Source: Paracoccaceae bacterium (lineage in GTDB: Bacteria; Pseudomonadota; Alphaproteobacteria; Rhodobacterales; Rhodobacteraceae). Taken from it: DNA of 64,000 nucleotides. Positions 47,957 to 62,776 of the stretch are shown piece by piece (position 1 is the first letter of the stretch; each line of letters opens with the position of its first letter). A model generated the notes under the pieces. That model did no database searches, was not told the origin of the DNA, and saw nothing but the letters and a program-made list of their open reading frames with translations. The stretch covers positions 1 through 64,000 of the forward strand of contig CACOXV010000001.1 in assembly GCA_902631295.1 (NCBI GenBank), in the 5' to 3' direction. The position numbers and the translations under genes are program-made.

Positions 47957-49459
47957 TTATTTCCGTGGGAATCTCTGTCGTTCCTCGACTTCATTGAGAT
48001 CCATGTGATTACGCATAAATCGCTCAGAAGCTTTTTTTAGTGGCTGAAAATCCCAAGGATAGTATTCTCCATTCCGAAGCGATTCATAGACGATGCAGCG
48101 CTGCGCCTGAGACTTTCGCACCTCTTTATCAAAACTGGCTAAGTCCCACTTTGCATCGGAAATTTTTCGAAATTCCGACAACTCTTTTGAAAAGTTTTGC
48201 AAAGTTGCCAGATTATACAATTCTTTAGGATCACTTTCCAAATCAAATAATTGTTCAGGATCAATATCACATCGATTGTATTTAAAAGGACCCAATCGTA
48301 TAGAAATTAGCGGCGCGTAACTTGCCTCTGCAGCGTACTCCATAAGAACAGGATTAGTCCTTATTGAGCCATTGGACAGTGGTAGAAGGCTTTCACCCTC
48401 CGTCCACCTTGCTAACTTGTCCATATCACAGCCTGACAAATCACAAAGCGTCGGACAAACATCGATTGTACTTACAGGCTCTGCAACTAATTTAGGCTCT
48501 AAAACAGTAGAGCTAATCATCAGTGGAACACGCGATGAGTTTTCGAAAAAACTCATCTTAAACCATAAGCCGCGTTCCCCAAGCATATCACCATGGTCAG
48601 AAACAAAAATTATCACTGCTTCCTGATTTGTTTTTTGTAAGGCATCCAGAATTTCGCCGATCTTATCATCAATATATGAAATATTTGCAAAGTAGGCGCG
48701 ACGGGAATTTTTTATATTTTCTTCAGAAATATTAAATTTCTTCCAATCGCTCGCATCTAAAATTCGTTTCGAATGAGGATCATGTTCCATGTAAGACAGT
48801 GCCGAAACTTCAGGTAAAAGATGACCACAATTCTCATAAAGATCCCAATATTTTTTTCTTGCCAAATAAGGATCATGCGGATGTGTAAAACTAACGGTAA
48901 GGCACCAAGGTCTTTCATCATGTCCACGTGAGAGATCGTATATCTTTCGATTAGCCTCGTATGCCACCTCGTCATCATATTCCAACTGATTTGTGATTTC
49001 TGCAGTCCCAGAATTAGTGATTGAACCCATGTTGTGATACCACCAGTCTATGCGTTCTCCGGGTTTACGATAGTCAGGTGTCCATCCAAAATCGGGAGGA
49101 TAAATATCCGTTGTGAGACGCTCCTCAAATCCATGCAATTGGTCGGGTCCAACAAAATGCATTTTACCAGAAAGTGCAGTTTGATAGCCCAACCTTCTTA
49201 GGTGATGCGCATAAGTTGGAAGACTTGAAGGAAATTCTGCCGCATTATCATAAACGCCAGTAAGAGAAGGTAGTTGTCCGGACATAAATGAAGCACGACC
49301 CGGAGCGCATAAGGGTGATGCTGTGTAACAATTCTTGAAGCGAACTGAACGAGCAGCAAGCTTTTTTAAATTTGGGGTGTGCAGCCAGTCGGCAGGACCG
49401 TCTGGAAAAAGGGTTCCAGTCAACTGATCAACCATAAATATCAGAATATTAGGTTTCAA
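47957..49459 (-). CDS. betC: Choline-sulfatase-like sulfatase
   Basis: 500 aa, TTG start with AAGGGG six bases before. LCAPGRASFMSG has the C-x-P/A-x-R formylglycine motif; MVDQL, HFVGPDQLHGFEERLT, SDHGDMLGERGLWFKMSFFE and the C-terminal RFMRNHMDLNEVEERQRFPR are typical of BetC. Releases sulfate and choline from choline-O-sulfate, supporting betaine synthesis or nutrition. No signal peptide. Neighbour of the Gph gene, 30 bases away. Confidence 0.9.
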   Translation of the reverse strand: MKPNILIFMVDQLTGTLFPDGPADWLHTPNLKKLAARSVRFKNCYTASPLCAPGRASFMSGQLPSLTGVYDNAAEFPSSLPTYAHHLRRLGYQTALSGKMHFVGPDQLHGFEERLTTDIYPPDFGWTPDYRKPGERIDWWYHNMGSITNSGTAEITNQLEYDDEVAYEANRKIYDLSRGHDERPWCLTVSFTHPHDPYLARKKYWDLYENCGHLLPEVSALSYMEHDPHSKRILDASDWKKFNISEENIKNSRRAYFANISYIDDKIGEILDALQKTNQEAVIIFVSDHGDMLGERGLWFKMSFFENSSRVPLMISSTVLEPKLVAEPVSTIDVCPTLCDLSGCDMDKLARWTEGESLLPLSNGSIRTNPVLMEYAAEASYAPLISIRLGPFKYNRCDIDPEQLFDLESDPKELYNLATLQNFSKELSEFRKISDAKWDLASFDKEVRKSQAQRCIVYESLRNGEYYPWDFQPLKKASERFMRNHMDLNEVEERQRFPRK

Positions 49460-49489
49460 AAGGTCCCCTTTGCGGCATAATTTTTGTGA

Positions 49490-50167
49490 CTAAACAGAAA
49501 TCAAATATTGATTATCGATAATGTCAAGCAACTCCTCCATACTATCGAGAAGATGCGTAACATTGAGCTCTTCATATGGCTTATGACAATAACCACCGCG
49601 AACAATTACCGAGATAGAACTAGCGGCGATGCCTGTTGCGGCATCAACTTCCGAGTCACCAATCATCATAGTTGTTTCCATAGGGCTATTTATTGCCTCA
49701 GCAGCTATTTGTAACATCGATGGATCAGGTTTTTTTACAAGATTTGGTCGACTTCCCACGATAGCATAAAAATAACTGTTGAGGTCAAGTGCTGAGACTA
49801 CCATCTGCGCTACAGTTTCATCTTTATTAGTGCAAATAGACATTGGAATCCCACGCTTTTTTAAACCCTCCAGACAATCTTTAACCCCATGCATCAGTGA
49901 TGACTTTTCACAATAATACTTACGGGAGTAGGCAAGCATTGAAGTGATCACACCAGCTGCAAGATCCTCCGGTGCTTCGATATGGGCAAGAGCCCTGAGA
50001 ACCAAAACAGGAATTCCATTGCCGATCATTTCTTTTACAGACTCTAAAGGAACCTGCCTTAAACCTGCATCATTAAGTGAGTTATTCAGGGCTATGGCAA
50101 TATCTGGCGCCGTATCTGCCAGTGTTCCATCCAAATCAAAAACACAACCTGTAATTTTGTTTTCCAT
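49490..50167 (-). CDS. gph: Phosphoglycolate phosphatase-like HAD hydrolase
   Basis: 225 aa. HAD motif I FDLDGTLADTAPD, motif II ICTNK, Lys at VKKPDPSML and motif III MIGDSEVDAATG. Dephosphorylates 2-phosphoglycolate or a similar ester. It lies just upstream of the choline-sulfatase gene on the same strand. Confidence 0.9.
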   Translation of the reverse strand: MENKITGCVFDLDGTLADTAPDIAIALNNSLNDAGLRQVPLESVKEMIGNGIPVLVLRALAHIEAPEDLAAGVITSMLAYSRKYYCEKSSLMHGVKDCLEGLKKRGIPMSICTNKDETVAQMVVSALDLNSYFYAIVGSRPNLVKKPDPSMLQIAAEAINSPMETTMMIGDSEVDAATGIAASSISVIVRGGYCHKPYEELNVTHLLDSMEELLDIIDNQYLISV

Positions 50168-50215
50168 GATGCTTTGCTTTAAAACAGTTTTGGTTTGACT
50201 TAGAATTATCTAATT

Positions 50216-51349
50216 TCAGTATAAGCTCAAGATACTGGGTAAACCGTGTTGCAATTTTCCACAGAAATCATTGCATTTACGAAGTTGATTAATATTGATC
50301 CCTTCATCGGGCTGATGGCCGTCACACTCCATTGAACCAGGACCTATGACTACAGTTCTCAAACCAATATTGGCAAAGAAGCCAGCTTCGGTACCAAAAG
50401 CTACTTTGATCGGGCCAGACACATTAGTCAGCGCCTGGACAGATTTCAAAATTGGGTCTGCCTTATTTACAGTTAGCCCAGGATATTGATAGACAAGAGA
50501 AATTTCTATGCTTTCAGAAGTTGTATCGAGTTCGTTCAAAATCTTGGCCGGTTCTTCTGTGGTCAGGTGACGGATTTCAAAACTGATCTCTGCCTTTTCT
50601 GGTACGATATTAAGAGCAACACCACCTCGAACAATCCCCACGTGAATAGTCGAATAGGGTATAGTGTAGGCATCATCCCAAGCACCACTTTTAGCAAGCC
50701 TTAATTGCAAATCTGAGGTCGCTAAAATAAATCTCGCTGCAACGTGAAGTGCATTTTTGAAATTTGGTGCGAGTGCCGAATGTCCCGCCTCTCCGTAACA
50801 AATCGCTTGATAAGACGCCTTTCCTTTATGTCCGAGACAAAGCTGCATATCCGTTGGTTCTCCCACGATCACAAGATCAGGACAGCCAAGAAATGGAACA
50901 ACGTGATCGATCATATGAGGAATACCTCGACATCCAATCTCTTCATCCCAGGATAAGGCAATCATAAAAGGTTTTTCTGGAGGCATATCCCGACAACTTC
51001 TGGCTTGTGCTAAAACACACGCCAGGAACCCCTTCATATCAGTTGTGCCACGCCCAATAACCCTATCACCAATACGCTGAAGTACAAACGGGTCAGAAGT
51101 CCAGTCTTGTCCCTTAGTTGAGACCACATCACTGTGTGCTGAGTACAAAATACCACCATCACCATCACCAAATTTTGCAAGCAGGCCAGCCTTACATCCG
51201 CACGGAGAGGGAATACGTTGAATTTGGAAACCAGATTTAGCTAGAAAATTTTCAACCCAATCAATAAGATCAATGTTCGGTTCGCTCGCAACTGTTTTGA
51301 ATCCGACGAGCTTTGTTAGTATATCGATAGTATCATTAAGATCGTCCAA
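50216..51349 (-). CDS. argE: M20-family deacylase (ArgE/DapE type)
   Basis: The track ORF begins inside the aldehyde dehydrogenase gene; the TTG at 51349 with AAGGGG six bases ahead removes that overlap, leaving 377 aa. Zinc-site markers are ILYSAHSDVVS, VIGRGTTDMKGFLA, SWDEEIGCRGIPHMI and VGEPTDMQLC; the end includes FGTEAGFF. Acetylornithine or acylated-amine deacetylase. Last gene of the polyamine-type operon. Confidence 0.87.
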   Translation of the reverse strand: MDDLNDTIDILTKLVGFKTVASEPNIDLIDWVENFLAKSGFQIQRIPSPCGCKAGLLAKFGDGDGGILYSAHSDVVSTKGQDWTSDPFVLQRIGDRVIGRGTTDMKGFLACVLAQARSCRDMPPEKPFMIALSWDEEIGCRGIPHMIDHVVPFLGCPDLVIVGEPTDMQLCLGHKGKASYQAICYGEAGHSALAPNFKNALHVAARFILATSDLQLRLAKSGAWDDAYTIPYSTIHVGIVRGGVALNIVPEKAEISFEIRHLTTEEPAKILNELDTTSESIEISLVYQYPGLTVNKADPILKSVQALTNVSGPIKVAFGTEAGFFANIGLRTVVIGPGSMECDGHQPDEGININQLRKCNDFCGKLQHGLPSILSLY

Positions 51350-51365
51350 GGCCGGCCCCTTAATG

Positions 51366-52847
51366 TTAGTATTTAACCCAGATAGTCTTAAGCGCAGTGT
51401 ATTTTTCAAAAGAATGAACGGATAAATCGCGACCAAAGCCAGATTGCTTCATACCGCCAAATGGAGTCATTGCAGACAGAGCATCCACTGTATTTACTGA
51501 AACAGTACCAACATGCAACTTATCTGACAAATCCATTGCACGCGCCAAATCAGACGTCCAAACGGATGCCGCTAGACCATACACGCTCTTATTTGCCATT
51601 TCGATAGCTTCATTTTCAGTATCAAATGTTTGGATCGCAAGAACTGGGCCAAAGATCTCATCGCGTGCTATTGTGGCATCTTCTGGAACATCTGAAAAAA
51701 TAGTAGGCTGAATAAAAGCATCACTACCGTTGATAGAAAACCTATCACCACCGATGATAAGCTTAGCCTCTAATTTTCCAACATTTAAGAACCGCTCAAC
51801 TTTTTTGGCATGGTTCACATCGACCATTGCTCCCATGGTAGTTGCTGGGTCAAGTGGATCACCTTGCTTGATCATTTCTGCTCTGTCTCTAAGTTTGCCG
51901 ACCATCTCGTCTTTAATACTTGAATGTACCAAAAGGCGGGAATTGGCTGAGCAGACCTCCCCTTGGTTAAAAAAGATTCCAAATGCCGCCATATCAGCAG
52001 CTTTTTCTAAATCCGCATCAGGGAAAATAATATTTGGGCTTTTTCCACCTGTTTCCAGCCATACTTGTTTCATATTGCTCTCACCAGCGTATTTCTGGAA
52101 GAGTTTGCCTACAGCTGTTGAACCTGTAAATACGAGACAGTCCACATCCATGTGACGACCTAATGCTTGACCAGCATCTTCACCAAATCCGGGCACAACA
52201 TTAAAAACACCATCTGGTAGCCCAGCTTCTTTGGCCAACTCTGCAAGGCGAAGCGCGGAAAGAGGCGATTGTTCTGCAGGCTTAAGTACTACAGAGTTTC
52301 CGGTGACCAAAGCCGGTGCTAATTTCCAGGTAGCCATATCTAGTGGGAAATTCCAAGGCACTACGGCACCTATCACACCCAACGGAACGCGGCGGATCAT
52401 GGCGATGTCCCGGCCACCTGTCGGAGCAATTTCATCATATATTTTATCGGCAGCTTCAGCATGCCACTGAAAAAAGAAAGCAGAACCCGGCGCATCTACG
52501 TTCACAGTTTCAGAAATAGGCTTACCCATATCTAAAGTATCGAGAAGGGCCATTTCTGAAACATTTTCACGAATAAGTCTCGCCAGATTTAGGATAACTT
52601 CTTTTCGCTCACTTGGTGTCTTTTCTGACCAACGACCATCCTCATAAGCAGTGCGAGCAGCATTTACCGCTGCGTCAATGTCATTACTGTTGCCCCTTGC
52701 GACATCACACAGCTTTTTGCCAGTAGACGGATTAATGTTCTCAAAGGTCTCGCCACTTTTAGCCGAAACAAATTGCCCATCTATCCAACATTTGGTTCGA
52801 AAATCCATTGAATTAGCTAGGGATGTGTAATATTCAAAGCTCTGCAT
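51366..52847 (-). CDS. Aldehyde dehydrogenase (PuuC-like)
   Basis: 493 aa. Catalytic Cys in FFNQGEVCSANSRL, general-base Glu in LETGGKSPN, NAD loop FTGSTAVGKLFQ. Subfamily match is to gamma-glutamyl-aminobutyraldehyde / betaine-type dehydrogenases. Converts an aminoaldehyde made by the aminotransferase or by a related step to an acid. AAAGG precedes the ATG used; the track is three codons longer. Confidence 0.92.
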   Translation of the reverse strand: MQSFEYYTSLANSMDFRTKCWIDGQFVSAKSGETFENINPSTGKKLCDVARGNSNDIDAAVNAARTAYEDGRWSEKTPSERKEVILNLARLIRENVSEMALLDTLDMGKPISETVNVDAPGSAFFFQWHAEAADKIYDEIAPTGGRDIAMIRRVPLGVIGAVVPWNFPLDMATWKLAPALVTGNSVVLKPAEQSPLSALRLAELAKEAGLPDGVFNVVPGFGEDAGQALGRHMDVDCLVFTGSTAVGKLFQKYAGESNMKQVWLETGGKSPNIIFPDADLEKAADMAAFGIFFNQGEVCSANSRLLVHSSIKDEMVGKLRDRAEMIKQGDPLDPATTMGAMVDVNHAKKVERFLNVGKLEAKLIIGGDRFSINGSDAFIQPTIFSDVPEDATIARDEIFGPVLAIQTFDTENEAIEMANKSVYGLAASVWTSDLARAMDLSDKLHVGTVSVNTVDALSAMTPFGGMKQSGFGRDLSVHSFEKYTALKTIWVKY

Positions 52848-52869
52848 TTTATACACCTTTCATAACACT

Positions 52870-53544
52870 CTACTCATCACCTGGAACTCCGTAAGATGGC
52901 GCATCAGTTGGGTTAATGGCGCGCATCACATAGTCTTTGGCTTGCGGTTTATAAATCTTCCAAGCGTTTTCAATCATCGTGATTGGACAATCTTCCGTCC
53001 AGTCGCAACGAAGCTCCGCATATGGCCAATCTTGTTTGTCAACGACTAGCAGTCCTGCCGAGTGCAAAGGTCCCGCCTCTCCACCCGCAGCTAAACCACT
53101 CTGTATAGCAGCAATTAAACGGTCACCCAAATTTCCCTTCGTATTTTCAAAGGCTTCAACCATGGTCTGCGGCACGTCTACATTTGCCAAAAGATTTCCG
53201 CCGGCTGCACAATAAAGACCCTGTGTCTCTGTCCAAATGCCAAGAGAATTTTCTCCAGAATGAATACAGGTATTACCATTTCTATCAACAGCCAAGAGCT
53301 GCCGATAACTGGGAAAAGGCTCACTAGAAATCGAAGTTTTAACTGCATCGGCGGCTGAACTTCCTGACTCAAGAAGTTGAAGCACCAAAGGACCTAAAGC
53401 TGGGTTGGTTACATTTTGTGTGGCAACTGCACCCACGCCCGCTTTGGCAAATGCACACCGTGCTGCAACGGCGGGTGAGGAAGAGGAAATTGCCAGTCCA
53501 AACTGCCCAGTATCAACGCATTTCGCGACAATGGAAAAAGTCAT
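52870..53544 (-). CDS. DUF1028 protein (Ntn-hydrolase-like)
   Basis: 224 aa. The N-terminal nucleophile-like start MTFSIVAKCVDTGQFGLAISSSSPAVAARCAFAKAGVGAVATQ and PGDE end are typical of DUF1028, a family occurring in gene clusters with RidA and ring-cleavage or amine genes. It lies 12 bases from the next gene in the operon. Exact reaction unknown. Confidence 0.85.
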   Translation of the reverse strand: MTFSIVAKCVDTGQFGLAISSSSPAVAARCAFAKAGVGAVATQNVTNPALGPLVLQLLESGSSAADAVKTSISSEPFPSYRQLLAVDRNGNTCIHSGENSLGIWTETQGLYCAAGGNLLANVDVPQTMVEAFENTKGNLGDRLIAAIQSGLAAGGEAGPLHSAGLLVVDKQDWPYAELRCDWTEDCPITMIENAWKIYKPQAKDYVMRAINPTDAPSYGVPGDE

Positions 53545-53556
53545 CCGAAGCCCTTT

Positions 53557-53970
53557 TCAGTCTGGAATTACAAAAGTTGCATCTATCTCTACCAACCACT
53601 CCGGGCGTGCCAAAGCTGTCACACAAAGACCTGTGGAAACTGGGTATATACCTTTAAGGTACTCACCCATAGTTCTGTAGACTGCCTCTCGATGACGGGT
53701 GTCCGTAATATATACAACGACTTTGCACATATCTTCCATTTTACCTCCAGCTTCTCCAATTAACTGCTGGATGTTTTGCATTACTTTATGGGTTTGCGTG
53801 ACCGGATCTTTGCTGGAAATATTTTCTGCAGTATCCAGATCTTGGGGGCACTGACCACGAAGAAAAACTGTTGCCCCGCGTGCAATAACCGCTTGGCAGA
53901 GATCATTATCTAGATTTTGCTCTGGATAGGTCTCTGCGGTATTGAATTTACGGACTCTAATATGCGTCAT
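53557..53970 (-). CDS. RidA-family protein
   Basis: 137 aa from the ATG with GGAG nine bases ahead. The family Arg/Glu pair is in CVTALARPEWLVEIDATFV. RidA proteins hydrolyse reactive enamine/imine products of amine oxidation, suited to the flavin monooxygenase and aminotransferase beside it. Confidence 0.88.
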   Translation of the reverse strand: MTHIRVRKFNTAETYPEQNLDNDLCQAVIARGATVFLRGQCPQDLDTAENISSKDPVTQTHKVMQNIQQLIGEAGGKMEDMCKVVVYITDTRHREAVYRTMGEYLKGIYPVSTGLCVTALARPEWLVEIDATFVIPD

Positions 53971-53990
53971 ATAAGCAAGCTCCACTAAAG

Positions 53991-55250
53991 TTAAAGGCAC
54001 TCTGCACTGCCTTGGTAGGCAAGATAGCCTTGTTGTTTCTCAATATGATCAACGATAAATTTGGCATCGTGCCAAACTCCCCAAATAAAGGAAGATCCAC
54101 GGCGTGATTGCCAGGGTAAACCTAAGAAATAAACGCCAGGTTCAGTAGAAATACCACGTTTATGCGAGGGAACATTATCCGCTTCAAATGCATCAAGTTG
54201 AAGCCAACCATAGTCATTGGAAAAGCCAGTCGCCCAGAGAATTGTTTTTATATTCTCATTAAAAAGATTAAGGGAGCGAATTGGCCGAGCGATACATTCT
54301 GGATCTGGGCCAATCTCACGAGCTTCAGGATCAAGTGGTAAATCAAGTCCATTTCGGTCTACATAGGCGTCAGCAAGATCAAGTATTGCAAGATAACTTT
54401 TATCACCTGCATGAATATTATCAGCAAGATTGTTTGCGAATTTGATTACGCCACTGTCATAAGTCTCGGTCAGACCCAAAAGCGTCAACCCTTGAGTTGC
54501 AAGCTTGCGAAAATCAACAGTTGCACCACCATCAGCCCCTGAGACAGCAATCGTCGTATGAGTTGATGATGGATTTGCTTCCGCATCCCAGAGATTTAGG
54601 ACACCTAGCCACCAGCAGAAGTCTCGGTTGCGGTAACGGCGCGGCGGTCGATCGTGAGCCCCTACGGAAAGAAAGGTTTTTCGCTCAGTCTTCATAAGTT
54701 CTGCAGTAATCTGAGCACCAGATGAGCCTGCACCAACCACTAAGACATTACCTTTTGGTAATTCTTCAGGATTTCGATAGGCCGTAGAATGTATTTGTTT
54801 AATCCCTTCAATCTCCGGAATAATTGGGGGCACCAGTGGTCGCTGGAATGCTCCAGTAGCAGAAATTACATAAGAAGTTTCAATCACTCCATCGCTAGTT
54901 TCAACAACAAATCCAGCACCTTTATCTTTACGCTTTACAGATCTCACATTAATGCCCTCACGAATTGGCGCATTAAACATCTTGGCATAATCAACAAGAT
55001 AATCGGCAACTTCTTCCTTTGGAACAAAGGCATCTTGATGCTGGCCCTCGAATTCCATATTCGGAAAACGATCGTGCCATGCAGGACCGTTTGCAACAAG
55101 CGAGTCCCAGCGCATTGTTCGCCAATGTTCCGCAGTTCGTGCTCTTTCCAAAACGATATGTTTGATACCAGCCCTTGTGAGGTGCTCGCTTGCTGCGATA
55201 CCCGCTTGACCGCCACCTACTACGACAACATCTGTTTTTTCCAATGTCAT
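53991..55250 (-). CDS. Flavin-dependent monooxygenase (NAD(P)-binding, FMO/CzcO-like)
   Basis: 419 aa. FAD site VVVGGGQAGIAASEHL, NADPH site VLVVGAGSSGAQITAEL and WATGF. Start set to the ATG with AAGGG ahead. N-hydroxylates or S-oxygenates a small amine; amine substrate suggested by context. The aminotransferase stop lies 20 bases upstream, so it is in the same operon. Confidence 0.87.
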   Translation of the reverse strand: MTLEKTDVVVVGGGQAGIAASEHLTRAGIKHIVLERARTAEHWRTMRWDSLVANGPAWHDRFPNMEFEGQHQDAFVPKEEVADYLVDYAKMFNAPIREGINVRSVKRKDKGAGFVVETSDGVIETSYVISATGAFQRPLVPPIIPEIEGIKQIHSTAYRNPEELPKGNVLVVGAGSSGAQITAELMKTERKTFLSVGAHDRPPRRYRNRDFCWWLGVLNLWDAEANPSSTHTTIAVSGADGGATVDFRKLATQGLTLLGLTETYDSGVIKFANNLADNIHAGDKSYLAILDLADAYVDRNGLDLPLDPEAREIGPDPECIARPIRSLNLFNENIKTILWATGFSNDYGWLQLDAFEADNVPSHKRGISTEPGVYFLGLPWQSRRGSSFIWGVWHDAKFIVDHIEKQQGYLAYQGSAECL

Positions 55251-55270
55251 TAGAAAAGCCCTTTTATCGT

Positions 55271-56635
55271 TCAAAGCTCACTCTGAACTTCTTTGATGCT
55301 GTTACTCATTATATTCACAACGTCATCAATCATATCTTCGTCCATAATTAATGTTGGTGACAAAATGGCAATGTTGCCAAGAGGCCTGACAATTAAGCCA
55401 CGCCGCTGCGCTGCACGAGCGATTTTTAGGCCAATTTTATCTTCCGGTTCAAACGGCGTTTTATTGATTTTTTCTTTGACAAATTCAATTCCCATCATGA
55501 AGTGACTGCCACGGACTTCACCAACCAAGTCCAAATCTGACAACTTATGCAGACTATTTTCAAAATGCTTTCCGGTTTTTTGTACTCGCTGTGGAATACC
55601 CTCTTTCTCCATCAAGGCAATATTTGCTATTGCAGCTGCTGACGCTGCGGGATGACCAGAGTAGGTCATACCATGAAGAAACATAGAACCTTCTCCAGAG
55701 ATCACTTCATGGATTTCGTCACTGATAATAGTAGCAGATAGCGGCTGGTAGCCAGAAGTCAGGCCTTTAGCAGTAGTTATAATATCAGGCTGCACGCCGA
55801 AGACATCTTTGGAAGCAAAAAAATGACCCAAACGACCAAAAGCGGTAACTACCTCATCAGTAATATATTTGATATCATAGTCCTTGCATAGCGCGCCCAT
55901 CCTTACATGGTAGCCGTTTGGTGGGACAATAAGGCCACCAGCACCCTGTATAGGTTCAGCTATAAAGCAAGCGATGTTCTCGCTGCCTAATGTCTCAATC
56001 CGAGATTTGGCATCTTCAAGAAGAAAATCCAAATATTCTCCTTCCGTCATGCCGTTCCCATATCGCCAGAAGTGTGGGCATTTTAAATGATGGACAAGGC
56101 CTTCCGCCTTATCCCACCCGTCAGCATAAGCCGGTGTTGTCATTGCCATCGCAAGATGGGTAGAGCCATGGTAGGCACCCTCACGACTAAGAACGAGCTT
56201 TTTATTATGTTTACCAAGACGATTATAGTAATGATGAAGCATCCGGATTGCACTGTCATTTGCGACAGAACCAGAGTTTCCAAAGTGCACAGTATTTAAA
56301 TGACCTGGAGCAAGAGATGCAACTTTTGCAGCTAGCTTAGCTGCTGTTGGATGCGTAAAATTGTAAAAAGTGGAATAGTAATCAAGAGTATTAAGCTGTT
56401 CGGTAATTGCATTGATTATCTCTTTCCGACGATGCCCTATATTAACACACCAAAGGCCCCCAATTCCATCGATTAATTTATTGCCATCACTGTCAGTGAC
56501 ATAAGCACCTTCAGCACCAACAATTACGGTACGAGCATCGTTTTGCTTGAGCGCATTTAGATCTGCAAAGGATTGGATCAAATGAGTATCAGAAGTGAGG
56601 ACGTCATCAGTGGTTGTCGGAATGTCTAGAGTCAT
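55271..56635 (-). CDS. Class III aminotransferase (putrescine/omega-amine:pyruvate type)
   Basis: 454 aa. The PLP Lys is in TTAKGLTSGYQPLSA; DEVVTAFGRLGHFFAS and GMTYSGHPAASAAAIANI are typical of omega-aminotransferases such as SpuC. Converts a terminal amine to an aldehyde with pyruvate as acceptor, feeding the aldehyde dehydrogenase. It overlaps the amidase gene by four bases. Confidence 0.92.
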   Translation of the reverse strand: MTLDIPTTTDDVLTSDTHLIQSFADLNALKQNDARTVIVGAEGAYVTDSDGNKLIDGIGGLWCVNIGHRRKEIINAITEQLNTLDYYSTFYNFTHPTAAKLAAKVASLAPGHLNTVHFGNSGSVANDSAIRMLHHYYNRLGKHNKKLVLSREGAYHGSTHLAMAMTTPAYADGWDKAEGLVHHLKCPHFWRYGNGMTEGEYLDFLLEDAKSRIETLGSENIACFIAEPIQGAGGLIVPPNGYHVRMGALCKDYDIKYITDEVVTAFGRLGHFFASKDVFGVQPDIITTAKGLTSGYQPLSATIISDEIHEVISGEGSMFLHGMTYSGHPAASAAAIANIALMEKEGIPQRVQKTGKHFENSLHKLSDLDLVGEVRGSHFMMGIEFVKEKINKTPFEPEDKIGLKIARAAQRRGLIVRPLGNIAILSPTLIMDEDMIDDVVNIMSNSIKEVQSEL

Positions 56636-57411
56636 TTGGTAAGAACCTTTCTGAAATCAGTAAGTTGAGTGGATATTAAAGCTGCATCAATTTTATTAAT
56701 TGAACTGAGGTCGGCGATTAGAAGATCTTCATCATCAGGACCAGCAGAAGCGAGAGGCTGGGCAAGGGGCCCCACGATCGTTGATTGACCGCAAAATGAC
56801 AGGCCATTATCACTTCCACAGTAATTTGTATAAACAATAGTCATGGCATTTTCTGATGCCCTAGCAGGTACCAACGTGGTATTTACTATGCTAAAATTCT
56901 CAGGATTAGCAGTAGGCACAAGTACAAGCTGAACGCCCATTTGTGCGAGCGCCTGAACATGTTGAGGAAATTCAACATCATAGCATATAAGAAGCCCTAT
57001 TTTGATCCCTGCTAATTCGAAGGTTACATAGCTGTCCCCAAATTCAAATATTTCTTGCTCTGTTTTACCCCAGAGCTGGATTTTACGAAAATGAGCTAAT
57101 TTTGTGCCTGCTCGGTCGAATGTGGACGCACTATTATAAATACTGTCTCCGTCCCGTTCAGCCCAACCTATTGTTAGACCACAACCATGCTTTTTCGCCA
57201 GCGCGGCAAGCTTAGTTTCCCAACTGCCTCCTTGCTTTTGGGCTACAACAGGATGACTTTTCATTTGATTATAACCAGGAAAATACAACTCTGGAAACAC
57301 GATCATTTCTACATTTTCGTTAGCTGCCTTGGCCAGTGTTTTATCGACTGTGGCCAAGGCACTTTTTATGTTCCCCTCAGGCGAGAAGCCTTGGTATGCT
57401 GCAACAATCAT
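56632..57411 (-). CDS. Carbon-nitrogen hydrolase (nitrilase superfamily)
   Basis: 259 aa. The Glu-Lys-Cys triad: VFPELYFPGY, FRKIQLW and LLICYDVEFP. N-carbamoylputrescine amidase or a related amidase is plausible from neighbours, not proven. AGGAG six bases before ATG. Next to the binding-protein gene (33-base gap). Confidence 0.9.
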   Translation of the reverse strand: MIVAAYQGFSPEGNIKSALATVDKTLAKAANENVEMIVFPELYFPGYNQMKSHPVVAQKQGGSWETKLAALAKKHGCGLTIGWAERDGDSIYNSASTFDRAGTKLAHFRKIQLWGKTEQEIFEFGDSYVTFELAGIKIGLLICYDVEFPQHVQALAQMGVQLVLVPTANPENFSIVNTTLVPARASENAMTIVYTNYCGSDNGLSFCGQSTIVGPLAQPLASAGPDDEDLLIADLSSINKIDAALISTQLTDFRKVLTK

Positions 57412-57444
57412 AGCTCCTCCTTTCTAAGAAGACGTTAGAATTGT

Positions 57445-58479
57445 TTACTTCTTTAAATTAGTCCAAATGGTGTCATAGACCGTTTGAACTTCTTGAGAAC
57501 ACGCTTGTACAAATTCACCTACAGGTGATGCTGGCGGATTTGATTCAGGTGAGTTTGCTACTGCGTCAGACAGGTGAGGTTCCGTGCCTTTGACGCCAGC
57601 AGTATAAGCTGCATAGTTAGTTACAGCTGCAGCATTTTCTGGCTCTAGAAGAAAATTCATGAACTTCAGGGCATTGTCACGATTTGGTGCATCCTTTAGT
57701 AAAACAACATTATCCATCCAAACAACGTATCCTTCTTTCGGAAATGCATATTCAACGTTTGCACCTTCTTCACGGGCTTTTGCGCTAAACCCAGACCAAA
57801 TCATACCAACCGATGCGTCGCCAGATACAAGCACGTCTTTGGCTATATCAGAACCAAAACTGGCCCAGTGTGGTTTAGCATTCTGAAGAAGCTCATTAAG
57901 AGCCTTAAGCTGATCACGATCCGTTGTGCATTGCGGAATACCTAGGTACATTGAGGCAAGAGCAAGAAGTTCGCCTTGACTATCGAGCACATTGATTTTT
58001 CCTTGCAATTCAGCAGGTGGATCAAAAACTATCGCAAGTGTGTTGATATCCCCTTTGTAGTCATCACGATTTACCGAAAAGCTGGTTGATCCCCACTGAT
58101 AAGGGATCGACGATTTGCGCCCCATGTCAAAACCAACGTTTACCCACTGATCCATTATGTTCCCGTGATTTGGCATCTCAGCTTTTGTGAAAGTATCAAG
58201 CATGCCATCACCGGCCATAATTTCCACCATATAGTCACCAGGAACAGCCACATCATAACTTCCCATTTTCCCAGCTTTAAGAGATGCCAGCATCGCTTCA
58301 TTGGAGTCAAAAGTATCCATGGTAACTTCAACACCGTATTGTGCAGAAAATTTGTCCAACAGTTCTTGTGGAATATATTCAAACCAATGATAGATTGATA
58401 GCTTCCCTTCAGCACTAGCGATATTCGCTGCCATTGAAAGGGTTAGCGCCGCAACGCCTAGTTTTATAAGTTTTTTCAT
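57445..58479 (-). CDS. Polyamine-type ABC transporter substrate-binding protein
   Basis: 344 aa. Signal peptide KKLIKLGVAALTLSMAANIASA; start of mature protein EGKLSIYHWFEYIPQELLDKFSAQYGVEV and YDVAVPGDYMVEIMAGDGML are PotD/PotF-type. Aspartate/Trp binding positions likely (QWGSTSF). AAGGAG precedes ATG. It lies last of the four transporter genes. Confidence 0.92.
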   Translation of the reverse strand: MKKLIKLGVAALTLSMAANIASAEGKLSIYHWFEYIPQELLDKFSAQYGVEVTMDTFDSNEAMLASLKAGKMGSYDVAVPGDYMVEIMAGDGMLDTFTKAEMPNHGNIMDQWVNVGFDMGRKSSIPYQWGSTSFSVNRDDYKGDINTLAIVFDPPAELQGKINVLDSQGELLALASMYLGIPQCTTDRDQLKALNELLQNAKPHWASFGSDIAKDVLVSGDASVGMIWSGFSAKAREEGANVEYAFPKEGYVVWMDNVVLLKDAPNRDNALKFMNFLLEPENAAAVTNYAAYTAGVKGTEPHLSDAVANSPESNPPASPVGEFVQACSQEVQTVYDTIWTNLKK

Positions 58480-58480
58480 T

Positions 58481-59317
58481 CTATTCTCCTTTTTTAGTTG
58501 TAGTCGGGTTTGCCTTTTCCCCTATCCGCCCGACGAAATAGGACAGGGCGACAAATCCCACGGATACCACCAACAGTAGTGTGGAAATTGCCATTATATT
58601 TGGTTTAATTCCTTGCTTAACAGCGCCAAAGATTACAGTAGGTAGCGTTTCTACCCCGGCACCTTTTACAAAGTTGGTAATGATGAAGTCATCTAGTGAA
58701 ATAATAAATGCCAGCAGAAATCCTGACATAATTCCTGGAGCCATCAATGGTAAAAGGATAAGGCGAAACGCCTGAAATCTTGTGGCATACAGGTCTTGTG
58801 CTGCCTGCTCATAGACTTCCTCAATACCCTCCATACGAGCAGCAATTGGTAAATAGGCAAAAGGAATACAAAATACAATATGGGCGATTAAGATCGTCAG
58901 GTACCCTGTCGTAAACCCAATTGCTGAAAAAAAGATTAGTGTAGCAACCGCTGTAACGATTTCGGGTACCATCAAAGGTAAATTAATCAATGCAAAACTT
59001 ACAGATTTACCTCGAAACCTTCCAGCACGCATCATTGCGGTCGCTGCCATTGTTGCGATTATAGTTGCAGATATCGCTGCCATAATAGCAATGGATACGG
59101 AGTTTATCGCTGCGGTTTTGAATTTTGGAGCATCTACTCCATAAAATAAATCATAGTACCATCGCAGCGATATCGTATTCCATCGAGTAATAGAATTACT
59201 GTCATTAAAAGAATAAATCATAACAATAATTAAGGGCGCATAAAGCAAAAAAAGGCACAAAAGTGTCAAAGGTTGAAACCCTGTGAAGTGGCGTAGATCA
59301 AGAGACTTTGTGGCCAT
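58481..59317 (-). CDS. Polyamine-type ABC transporter permease (PotI-like)
   Basis: 278 aa, six helices. EAA loop [25 protein letters not shown]. The start ATG overlaps the stop of PotH-like by one base (TGATG); the track adds one TTG codon. Confidence 0.92.
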
Positions 59318-60237
59318 CAAATCTGATCCTTTGTTTGGCTGCGCGCGTAAAATGTAAGAACAATTAACACAAGAGATAACAGTATCATGGATGCAGCGGC
59401 TCCAAACGGCCAGTTTCCTGCAGCGCCTTTAAATTGCTCCTCAATTAATGAACCTATCATAAAATTCTTGGCACCTCCTAATAAGTCAGGCGCCAGAAAG
59501 GCACCTAAGCTTGGAACAAAGACGAGTATACAACCCGCTATTATTCCAGGTTTTACAGTAGGCAAAATAACTTGTGTAAGTGTCACAGTCTGCGACGCAT
59601 AGAGGTCAGCAGCCGCTTCGCTCAGCGCAAAGTTATAACGTTCAACCGCAGCGTAGATGGGAAGCACCATGAAGGGTAGATACGAATAGAAAAGTCCAAG
59701 TTGAACTGCAAAATTTGTATTTATGATGTGAAGGGGTTCCGAGATTAGTCCAAGAGATAAAAAGAATTCATTTAAAGGACCATTGTCTCGGATAAGAAAC
59801 TTCATTGAAATTGTACGGATCAGTAAGTTTACCCAATACGGTATTGTTATCAAGAATAGCCAAATTGTTTTATTTGGTCCTGTTCTAGTGGCAATGAACC
59901 ATGCTGTAGGAAAACCAATTAGAAGGCAGAAAAAAGTAGCTAGCCCCGCTTGCCATATTGAACGCCAAAAAATACCGATATAGGTCCACTCTATTGTTGG
60001 CGGACTATCGCCAAAAAGCCCCCGGTAAAAAAAGAATTGGTCATAGGCGCCAATCGAAAACTCCCAAATGACGCCACCACGAAACTCTTTAGTTAAAAAA
60101 GAATATACCAACATCATAGCGACAGGAATAACTAAGAAGAAACCAATAATGATCCACGCAGGTAAAATTAATGGTATACCGAGGCCATCATAGGTTTTGG
60201 CCGAGCCTTTTGAGGTTGTTTTCGGTAGATTGGCCAT
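59317..60237 (-). CDS. Polyamine-type ABC transporter permease (PotH-like)
   Basis: 306 aa, six helices. EAA loop [39 protein letters not shown] is PotH-like. Overlaps both flanking genes by one base. Confidence 0.92.
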
Positions 60238-61313
60238 CAGTCCACCAGCAATCGCGCAGAGCTTGGATCAAAATCAAGCCCTACTGATTGACCCACGTCA
60301 GGAATTTGAATTTGAGTGGAGTTTTGCATTCTTACTGTTACATTACCGCCCGTATTTAATTTCACCTCTATGTGGAGATCGGTACCAAGATATATGTGGC
60401 GGACAGCAGTACCCTTGAGCAGACTTTTGCTTGATGCGCTGATTTTAATACGCTCAGGGCGCACGGATAGATGCCCAGGCCCAGAACGAGCGCCTCTCGC
60501 GGCAGAGCACGTGATCTTTTCTCCACCGGGTAAAATGCATGAACCTTTTCCAGCTTCAAGGTTTGAAACGTTTACATCGATTAAGTTGGTTTCACCTATA
60601 AAATCAGCCACAAATTTATTTTCAGGCGCCTCATAAATTTCCCTTGCAGATCCAACTTGCTGTACTCGCCCCCCTTCCAGTACTGCAATGCGGTTGGACA
60701 TAGTCAGTGCTTCTTCCTGATCGTGAGTAACGAATATAAATGTTATTCCCGTTTGAACCTGAATTTGTTGAAGTTCAAGCCGCACAGCTTGGCGAAGCTT
60801 TAGATCAAGCGCAGAAAGCGGTTCGTCAAGCAGCAATACCTTTGGGCTTGGTGCAAGCGCGCGTGCTAGTGCTACGCGTTGTTGTTGACCTCCAGACAAT
60901 TGGCTAGGCATCCGGTCTGCAAAATCAGAAAGCCGGACAAGTTCAAGCACCTCATTAACTCGGTTTATAGCCTTTGACTTTTCTTGACCAAGTCGTAGCA
61001 ATCCAAACATGACATTATCAGTAACATTCATATGTGGGAATAATGCATACTGCTGAAACACTGTATTAACCGGGCGTTTGTTTGGTAGTAAGTCAGCAAT
61101 ATTTTGACCGTACAAAAGAATTGCACCATTTGAAATTTCCTCAAACCCTGCAATCAATCGCAGCAAGGTAGTCTTTCCGCATCCAGAAGGGCCTAGTAAG
61201 GTAAAAAATTCATTATCGCGGATATCTAAGCTCACGCCTTTAAGAGCGGTGAAACCACCAAACATTTTTGTTACGTTTTGTATATCAACTGCAATTTCGT
61301 TGTCTTTAGACAT
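60237..61313 (-). CDS. Polyamine-type ABC transporter ATPase (PotG/PotA-like)
   Basis: 358 aa. Walker A GPSGCGKTT, signature LSGGQQQRVALARALA, Walker B VLLLDEPLSALD, His switch VTHDQEEAL, TOBE region after 240. First gene of the long minus-strand operon; its start is 100 bases from the LuxR gene, transcribed oppositely. Confidence 0.94.
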   Translation of the reverse strand: MSKDNEIAVDIQNVTKMFGGFTALKGVSLDIRDNEFFTLLGPSGCGKTTLLRLIAGFEEISNGAILLYGQNIADLLPNKRPVNTVFQQYALFPHMNVTDNVMFGLLRLGQEKSKAINRVNEVLELVRLSDFADRMPSQLSGGQQQRVALARALAPSPKVLLLDEPLSALDLKLRQAVRLELQQIQVQTGITFIFVTHDQEEALTMSNRIAVLEGGRVQQVGSAREIYEAPENKFVADFIGETNLIDVNVSNLEAGKGSCILPGGEKITCSAARGARSGPGHLSVRPERIKISASSKSLLKGTAVRHIYLGTDLHIEVKLNTGGNVTVRMQNSTQIQIPDVGQSVGLDFDPSSARLLVD

Positions 61314-61338: not shown

Positions 61339-61397
61339 TATACCCCTAAAACTTGATATTATATCCTATCTGAGGCAATTTGAGGGGTATATACCCC
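61339..61397. promoter_or_regulatory. GGGGTATATACCCC operator with a half-site
   Basis: A perfect 14-bp palindrome GGGGTATATACCCC lies at 61384-61397, and the half TATACCCC at 61339-61346, in the 100-base spacer of divergent genes. The palindrome is 16 bases before the LuxR start, so it could allow autoregulation as well as control of the ABC operon. Confidence 0.55.
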
Positions 61398-61413
61398 CAA
61401 AGAGGTAAAAAGC

Positions 61414-62199
61414 ATGAATGCCGATAACTCTGAGACACTGTTGGCACAAACGATCAAGTCATTGAAAAAAAATGGCTTTTCTATGTATTTCAATCGATGG
61501 CTTCGTACTTTAGCAAACCACGATAATACAACAATTTTAGCTTATTTCCGGGATGAAACACCTCAAATTTTATTAACAGATTCGGAAACCAGAGCAGTTC
61601 ACCAAAATATGTCACATGTGTATCTTAGTGGCGCTTACTTGCTAGATCCATTTTATGAACTGCACAATTCAGGTGCTGACACTAATCTGTATCGGATGTC
61701 AGATATTGCACCAGATCAATTTAGTCGAAACCAATATTTTTTGGAATACTATCAGAGAACTACCATAATTGATGAAATTGCGTTCATAATCTGGCCATCA
61801 CCTCAAATCAGTGTACATGTCTGTTTAGGTCGCGATATAAAATCTAAGCGTCGCTTTACTATCCGAGAAATATCTTCAACAAAACAGGTACTTCCTATAG
61901 TTGAGACACTTGTCTGTGAACATTGGGGAAATTTACGGTTCAGCAGCGACGAGCATGGAGAAAATGTTCTAGAACGAATGGTCCGTTTAGTTGCTGAAAC
62001 CCACAGTATAAATTTAACCAAACGACAGGCAGAAGTCGCACTTTTGGTTCTCAGGGGGCATTCCTCCGCATCAATCGGGTTACGGTTAGAAATTTCGCCA
62101 CAAACCGTAAAAGTTTTTCGAAAGCAGTTATATCGTAAATGCAACATATCATCTCAAGCAGAGTTGTTTGCTCTAATCACACCACTACTGGTGAATTAG
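61414..62199 (+). CDS. LuxR-family transcriptional regulator
   Basis: 261 aa. C-terminal GerE-type helix-turn-helix: LTKRQAEVALLVLRGHSSASIGLRLEISPQTVKVFRKQLYRKC at about 205-250. The N-terminal half is not a typical autoinducer domain; unknown ligand. Divergent from the polyamine-type ABC operon, so it probably controls it. GAGGT nine bases before ATG. Confidence 0.9.
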   Translation: MNADNSETLLAQTIKSLKKNGFSMYFNRWLRTLANHDNTTILAYFRDETPQILLTDSETRAVHQNMSHVYLSGAYLLDPFYELHNSGADTNLYRMSDIAPDQFSRNQYFLEYYQRTTIIDEIAFIIWPSPQISVHVCLGRDIKSKRRFTIREISSTKQVLPIVETLVCEHWGNLRFSSDEHGENVLERMVRLVAETHSINLTKRQAEVALLVLRGHSSASIGLRLEISPQTVKVFRKQLYRKCNISSQAELFALITPLLVN

Positions 62200-62248
62200 C
62201 AAGTCATATTATCCATCCTATCTCAGATTTATAAACGTAATTAACATC

Positions 62249-62443
62249 TTACCTAACTACTTCCCTTTGTGCTACCTCACAAAATGCCCGAATAAGATGT
62301 GAGTTTTCACGCTCTTTCAAGAAAGCTAAGAAGTACTGCGTACTAATTAGTGCATCCTTGATGGGAATGGCTCTCAAGTTTGGATGGGGTACGAACTCAA
62401 AATTTAAGACATTTTTTAGCGTCTGTGGGCGTGGGTCACAGCT
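62249..62443 (-). pseudogene. C-terminal remnant of a LysR-like regulator
   Basis: A 64-codon minus-strand frame without start reads HPNLRAIPIKD, then FLAFLKERENSHLIRAFCEVAQREV, the C-terminal pattern of LysR effector domains. It is preceded by a stop, and the upstream sequence continues coding-like in another frame, so it is a decayed gene. It lies next to the MmgE/PrpD gene; the family call is by resemblance only. Confidence 0.42.
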
Positions 62444-62776
62444 TCAGTGACCAAGGAGTGTCAGGCACTGATTGCAAAAAATTATTGACGATGCGTTTAT
62501 TGGAGAGCGCGGTAAGAATTTCATTGGCTCCAAAGAGGGCTTTTGGGAGGCAGCCGAACAAATGGGTAGTATAGAGTAAAAAATATCTAACCTAATTCAC
62601 TCCAATTTACTAATTTTATTAGTTTGACGAACACACCACGAAGAGTCGTAAAGAAAATTGCTACTAGCTTTTGGAAAGTTGGCTTTTTCAATATGAAGTA
62701 TTATTAAAAAATTGTGTCGTAAATAGATTAGAAATTCTAAGATGCCAAGTTATTCGATATAACAGAAAGGCAACCC
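62444..62776. other. Intergenic region with degraded sequence
   Basis: Probably includes more of the decayed LysR gene in other frames (62444-62560); the rest is spacer before the MmgE/PrpD start. Confidence 0.3.

Follow-up and report, generated by a model that had tools for sequence, protein, structure and literature searches.

The window, that is, the whole 64,000-nt stretch of DNA from a Paracoccaceae bacterium analyzed here, contains between a luxR gene and the operon that it faces a 25-bp array of three heptamers, which probably serves the adjacent LuxR solo as its dedicated operator; the ligand-bound regulator would activate the divergent operon from it as a class II activator and would limit its own expression. 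The spacer runs from the start of the potA-type ABC transporter ATPase gene (60237-61313, minus strand), the first gene of the divergent operon, to that of luxR (61414-62199, plus strand), and measures exactly 100 bp, as the original prediction had it. A perfect 14-bp palindrome at 61384-61397 and a half-site had also been claimed for this interval, and both were found, the palindrome as GGGGTATATACCCC and the half-site as TATACCCC at 61339-61346, which corresponds to a further heptamer (D).

Judged alone, the palindrome is unremarkable, as nine perfect 14-bp palindromes were observed in the 64-kb window, where a first-order Markov model predicts 5.6 (around 0.009 per 100 bp). The relatives argue for a natural unit larger than the palindrome, formed by positions 61383-61407 plus the heptamer at 61341-61347. 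The first of these segments contains three heptamers separated by 2-bp gaps, TA and AA respectively. Heptamer A, AGGGGTA (61383-61389, plus strand; reverse complement TACCCCT), constitutes the left arm of the palindrome, and heptamer B, TACCCCC (61392-61398, plus strand), its right arm, so that the palindrome spans A and B without the outermost base of each and has TA at its center. Heptamer C, AGAGGTA (61401-61407, minus strand; reverse complement TACCTCT), overlaps the GAGG Shine-Dalgarno sequence of luxR, and forms with B a 7-2-7 inverted repeat, TACCCCC-AA-AGAGGTA (TACCCCCAAAGAGGTA, 61392-61407), the putative primary site of the LuxR dimer. Heptamer D, TACCCCT (61341-61347, plus strand), lies 42 bp, or around four helical turns, upstream of A and close to where the predicted potA transcript would begin.

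The conservation of these elements was studied in LuxR relatives gathered by order-wide, class-wide and genome-contig searches. The resulting set, made of the window and 35 luxR relatives with 39-87% protein identity from Rhodobacterales, Stappiaceae and Rhizobiales, showed the A-B-C array in all 36 sequences, with the spacing between the array and D kept and the flanks scrambled. The palindrome, whose loss in relatives would have spoken against an operator, is retained, its 14-bp core being perfect in 31 of the 36 sequences and showing one or two mismatches in the other five, and the distance from A to D is 42 bp in 25 of the 36 and 41 or 43 bp in the remainder. When the information content was computed over 38 sequences (these 36 plus L074 and L075), 15 of the 25 array columns were invariant and 20 carried at least 1.2 bits, with flanks mostly below 0.3 bits; B was near-invariant, and A was degenerate in L023-L025. 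A/T-biased columns at -33/-32 and -4/-3 relative to heptamer A (61383) are also conserved, outside the heptamers and the predicted -10. It is the conservation of the core that exceeds chance. That the palindrome arose by chance and has no function would agree with the 5.6 or so expected per 64 kb, but it is maintained in 35 relatives, the most distant with 39% protein identity, which leaves practically no probability for this explanation, and we ruled it out.

The same alignment bears on a role at the RNA level, in which the palindrome would act as a hairpin of the luxR mRNA beside the Shine-Dalgarno sequence and control translation. While a short stem could fold from GGGGUAUAUACCCC immediately before GAGG, the changes in arm A (L023, L024 and L025) and in arm B (L075) are uncompensated, and among the departures in the arms only that of L016 stays paired, through a G-U. 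Moreover, D and C, which are conserved and at fixed spacing, fall outside the hairpin, and distant paralogues retain B-C without the palindrome. A hairpin is thus very improbable, and was rejected for the lack of compensation in its arms.

A search for the motif elsewhere in the genome, which the original prediction had proposed, gave exactly one copy of GGGGTATATACCCC in an assembly that is around 70% complete. When RGGGGTATATACCCCYNNRGRGGTA was searched with up to three mismatches, 36 of the 37 luxR-bearing genomes showed one match each, directly upstream of luxR (in G405 and G170 a second row comes from an overlapping reverse read of that same site). Among 395 genomes of the order, 24 had a match to the array with up to two mismatches, all of them within the 25 genomes that encode a luxR relative (at least 45% identity), and none of the 370 sampled genomes of the order without this luxR had such a match. 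The exception in both searches was G321, the sole operator-less genome of the 37, where the luxR relative (L026) matches only residues 59-260 and is perhaps a decayed copy; it sits between aminotransferase and aldehyde dehydrogenase genes. In 14 genomes the B-C 16-mer alone was likewise single and located at luxR, except for an additional match of TACCAC type in G406. With one array per genome, a global regulon was ruled out.

The gene on the other side of the array is potA in most relatives, and it is replaced by a class III aminotransferase gene in L016, L018, L020 and L075, by a TMADH-like dehydrogenase gene (a name given from visual inspection of the sequence) in L013, L014 and L041, and by an N,N-dimethylformamidase-like gene, of which an annotated Ensifer example exists, in L042 and L043. 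In all of these the array was retained, so the array follows luxR and not the transporter.

Regarding the regulator, the GerE helix-turn-helix (HTH) was the only Pfam domain detected in LuxR at an E value of 0.001 or better, with no match at this level to the autoinducer-binding domain (Autoind_bind), nor any Pfam match to a receiver domain. Its predicted model (mean pLDDT of 90) has the ligand-binding domain of Pseudomonas aeruginosa VqsR as best fold match (TMt 0.85), followed by SdiA, QscR and RhlR, and sequence searches gave VqsR (5XHX, E of 5e-9) and, for the HTH, NarL (1JE8). Among solved structures, VqsR is thus the nearest to the N-terminal domain, although identity is around 23% and, unlike vqsR, the luxR gene described here adjoins a transport and catabolic operon. 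No synthase gene was found among the genes called near luxR. The autoinducer-type ligand fold predicted by the model, the GerE HTH and the lack of an adjacent synthase point to a LuxR solo of the quorum-sensing type; the protein does not belong to the NarL/FixJ response regulators, as it has a LuxR-type ligand fold in place of their N-terminal phospho-receiver domain. The solos of the PipR/OryR group resemble it in the absence of a synthase in adjacent genes, in the ABC transporter operon alongside and in the likely sensing of an exogenous small molecule, and differ from it in that this LuxR shows no Pfam autoinducer-binding domain match and is associated with TACCCC sites of NarL type.

The relationship with NarL is clearest in the recognition helix (TVKVFRKQ in this LuxR), whose TVKVFRK stretch aligns with TVKVHVK of NarL and conserves the equivalents of Lys188-Val189 and Lys192. 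As Maris reportedly described in 2002, NarL residues 188, 189 and 192 contact bases. Residue 191 is Arg in this LuxR and Val in NarL, so recognition need not match that of NarL exactly. Helix alpha-9 is the specificity determinant (PMC3246441), the consensus of the NarL heptamer is TACYYMT (PMC4886647), and a 7-2-7 site engineered for NarL reads 5'-TACCCCTAAAGGGGTA-3' (PMC4549865), to which B-C is almost identical; in L042 and L043 the B-C sequence is TACCCCCAAAGGGGTA. Heptamer C fits the consensus fully and B at six of seven positions, and the relatives with TACCCCT fit it fully. Thus, as in the NarL/NarP 7-2-7 sites (the engineered narG -89/-89 site, napF and yeaR), the heptamers either conform to TACYYMT or depart from it at the final base and form an inward pair with a 2-bp gap, predicted to lie near position -43, facing a GerE/NarL HTH that keeps the key residues, which supports that B-C is a NarL-type site. 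There are also differences from NarL/NarP, such as a LuxR-type ligand domain and no receiver domain in the regulator, a third, outward heptamer (A) that turns the site into a 7-2-7-2-7 array, and a single site per genome in place of a global regulon. A literature search on the motif returned nothing relevant. Since it is B-C that persists in distant paralogues and where A is degenerate, the LuxR dimer probably does not bind the A-B palindrome as such. The proposal that the palindrome marks a LuxR operator is therefore supported for the array, which accompanies luxR in 36 of 37 genomes, and probably not for the palindrome as the bound unit.

The recognition helix and the site vary together. A TACCCC 7-2-7 site, defined by at least 12 of 14 matching positions, was found upstream of the genes for 49 of the 50 proteins with Lys-Val at positions 188-189, vs 1 of the 22 with other residues (Fisher p of 6e-16); only 4 of 2000 random 245-nt stretches reached the threshold. 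The Lys-Val set includes seven proteins at 30-36% identity, mostly without heptamer A. We take this correlation as support and not as proof, as clade membership accounts for part of it. Three Lys-Ile proteins (L076, L078 and L080) carry TATCCC..GGGAT instead. Paralogues with Arg-Ile at these positions (L028-L031, L082, L085, L086, part of L089-L095, and L099), several of them beside potA-type genes, share other upstream elements, of TATATACCACG type or GTAAATATGCAA type. We tentatively consider, at somewhat less than even chances, a subfamily of LuxR solos with quorum-sensing fold and NarL-type heptamer recognition that keeps one regulator and one operator across Alphaproteobacteria, with a site that changes with residues 188-189 (TACCCC for Lys-Val, TATCCC for Lys-Ile and others for Arg-Ile) and a ligand domain that senses histamine or a breakdown product.

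The correlation with the recognition helix also argues against recognition of the palindrome by a different regulator, such as a global one, whose target would then adjoin luxR by coincidence. In favor of such a target are the symmetry of the palindrome and its GTATATACCCC stretch, which ranks with the least variable segments of the array, but the array is single in each genome and present only where this luxR is, so we regard a foreign target as improbable.

The comparison of relatives also revealed a candidate promoter for the divergent operon. A minus-strand TANNNT was found 14 or 15 nt from heptamer A in 32 of 38 sequences, with no more than four at any other offset, and corresponds in the window to TAGGAT (61363-61368, minus strand), the predicted -10; a scan for sigma-70-like promoters gave no match, and no consensus -35 was present. 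Taking the conserved TANNNT as the -10 centers B-C near -43.5 and locates A in the -35 region. In the NarL/NarP-activated napF and yeaR promoters, 7-2-7 sites lie at -40/-49 and -38/-47 (PMC4549865). We infer from these positions a class II, activator-dependent layout for the divergent operon, with A replacing the -35 hexamer.

In the mechanism that we propose, a LuxR dimer would bind the B-C inverted repeat through its GerE/NarL-type HTH, and a further subunit or dimer would contact A and perhaps D. From B-C, and with A in place of the -35 hexamer, the ligand-bound protein would recruit RNA polymerase to the operon of potA-D and the amine-catabolic genes. As C covers the Shine-Dalgarno sequence of luxR, this weakly suggests that the same binding represses luxR itself. 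The overlap of C with the Shine-Dalgarno sequence would also suit a LuxR that, on the same array, mainly represses both divergent promoters until the ligand releases it. Sites near a promoter fit repression too, and D, close to the predicted potA start, could support a repression loop with A-C, from which it is separated by 42 bp or four turns. We consider this repressor role unlikely, as the presence of A and not of a consensus -35 in the -35 region, together with the lack of a sigma-70-like match, is what activator-dependent promoters typically show, and NarL 7-2-7 sites at such a position activate (PMC4549865).

The ligand of an activating LuxR would be a small molecule sensed by the VqsR-like N-terminal domain, and the likeliest candidates are the substrates and intermediates of the operon. 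Behind potA, the rest of the putative operon (50216-60237, minus strand) encodes PotB, PotC, PotD, a carbon-nitrogen hydrolase, a class III aminotransferase, a FAD monooxygenase, RidA, DUF1028, an aldehyde dehydrogenase and an M20 hydrolase. In Pseudomonas, hinFLHG encode a FAD monooxygenase, an enamine deaminase and two amidases, hinC an aminotransferase and hinD an aldehyde dehydrogenase (PMC8231116, PMC6467879). The genes of the window match hinF-L-H-(D)-G by family and order, and include hinC- and hinD-type genes, so the operon resembles the hin pathway; this assignment stems from the families and arrangement of the genes and does not draw on tested HinF or HinG sequences. On a Caballeronia plasmid (L105), a LysR gene faces FAD monooxygenase, RidA, DUF1028 and argE genes in the same order. 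Since families and order match hin, our best guess by analogy is that the operon breaks down histamine or imidazoleacetate; the array is very probably the switch of an operon for the uptake and degradation of an amine, perhaps histamine. Polyamine uptake as the sole role of the operon was set aside, as it carries hin-like catabolic genes. By the same analogy, histamine or imidazole-4-acetate would be the candidate ligand. There are differences from Pseudomonas, where the regulator HinK is a LysR protein activated by imidazole-4-acetate and uptake depends on the permease HinA, in contrast to the LuxR solo and the pot-type ABC transporter found here. A literature search for LuxR and histamine in Rhodobacteraceae gave nothing relevant.

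The whole minus-strand run at 47957-61313, with hin-like catabolic genes behind the pot-type transporter, ends near genes for a HAD hydrolase and a sulfatase with a choline-sulfatase C-terminal domain. On the other side of luxR, the region 62200-62776, up to a MmgE/PrpD-family gene, contains no listed open reading frame of at least 80 aa and may hold gene remnants.

These data make of a hitherto unassigned LuxR solo from marine bacteria a switch that experiments can address, with a defined operator, a predicted promoter position and a candidate class of ligands. Its paralogues constitute a natural series in which, for the GerE/NarL HTH family, operator sequence can be related to two residues of the recognition helix. 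Should the hin assignment prove true, marine Rhodobacterales would use histamine under the control of a regulator unrelated to HinK.
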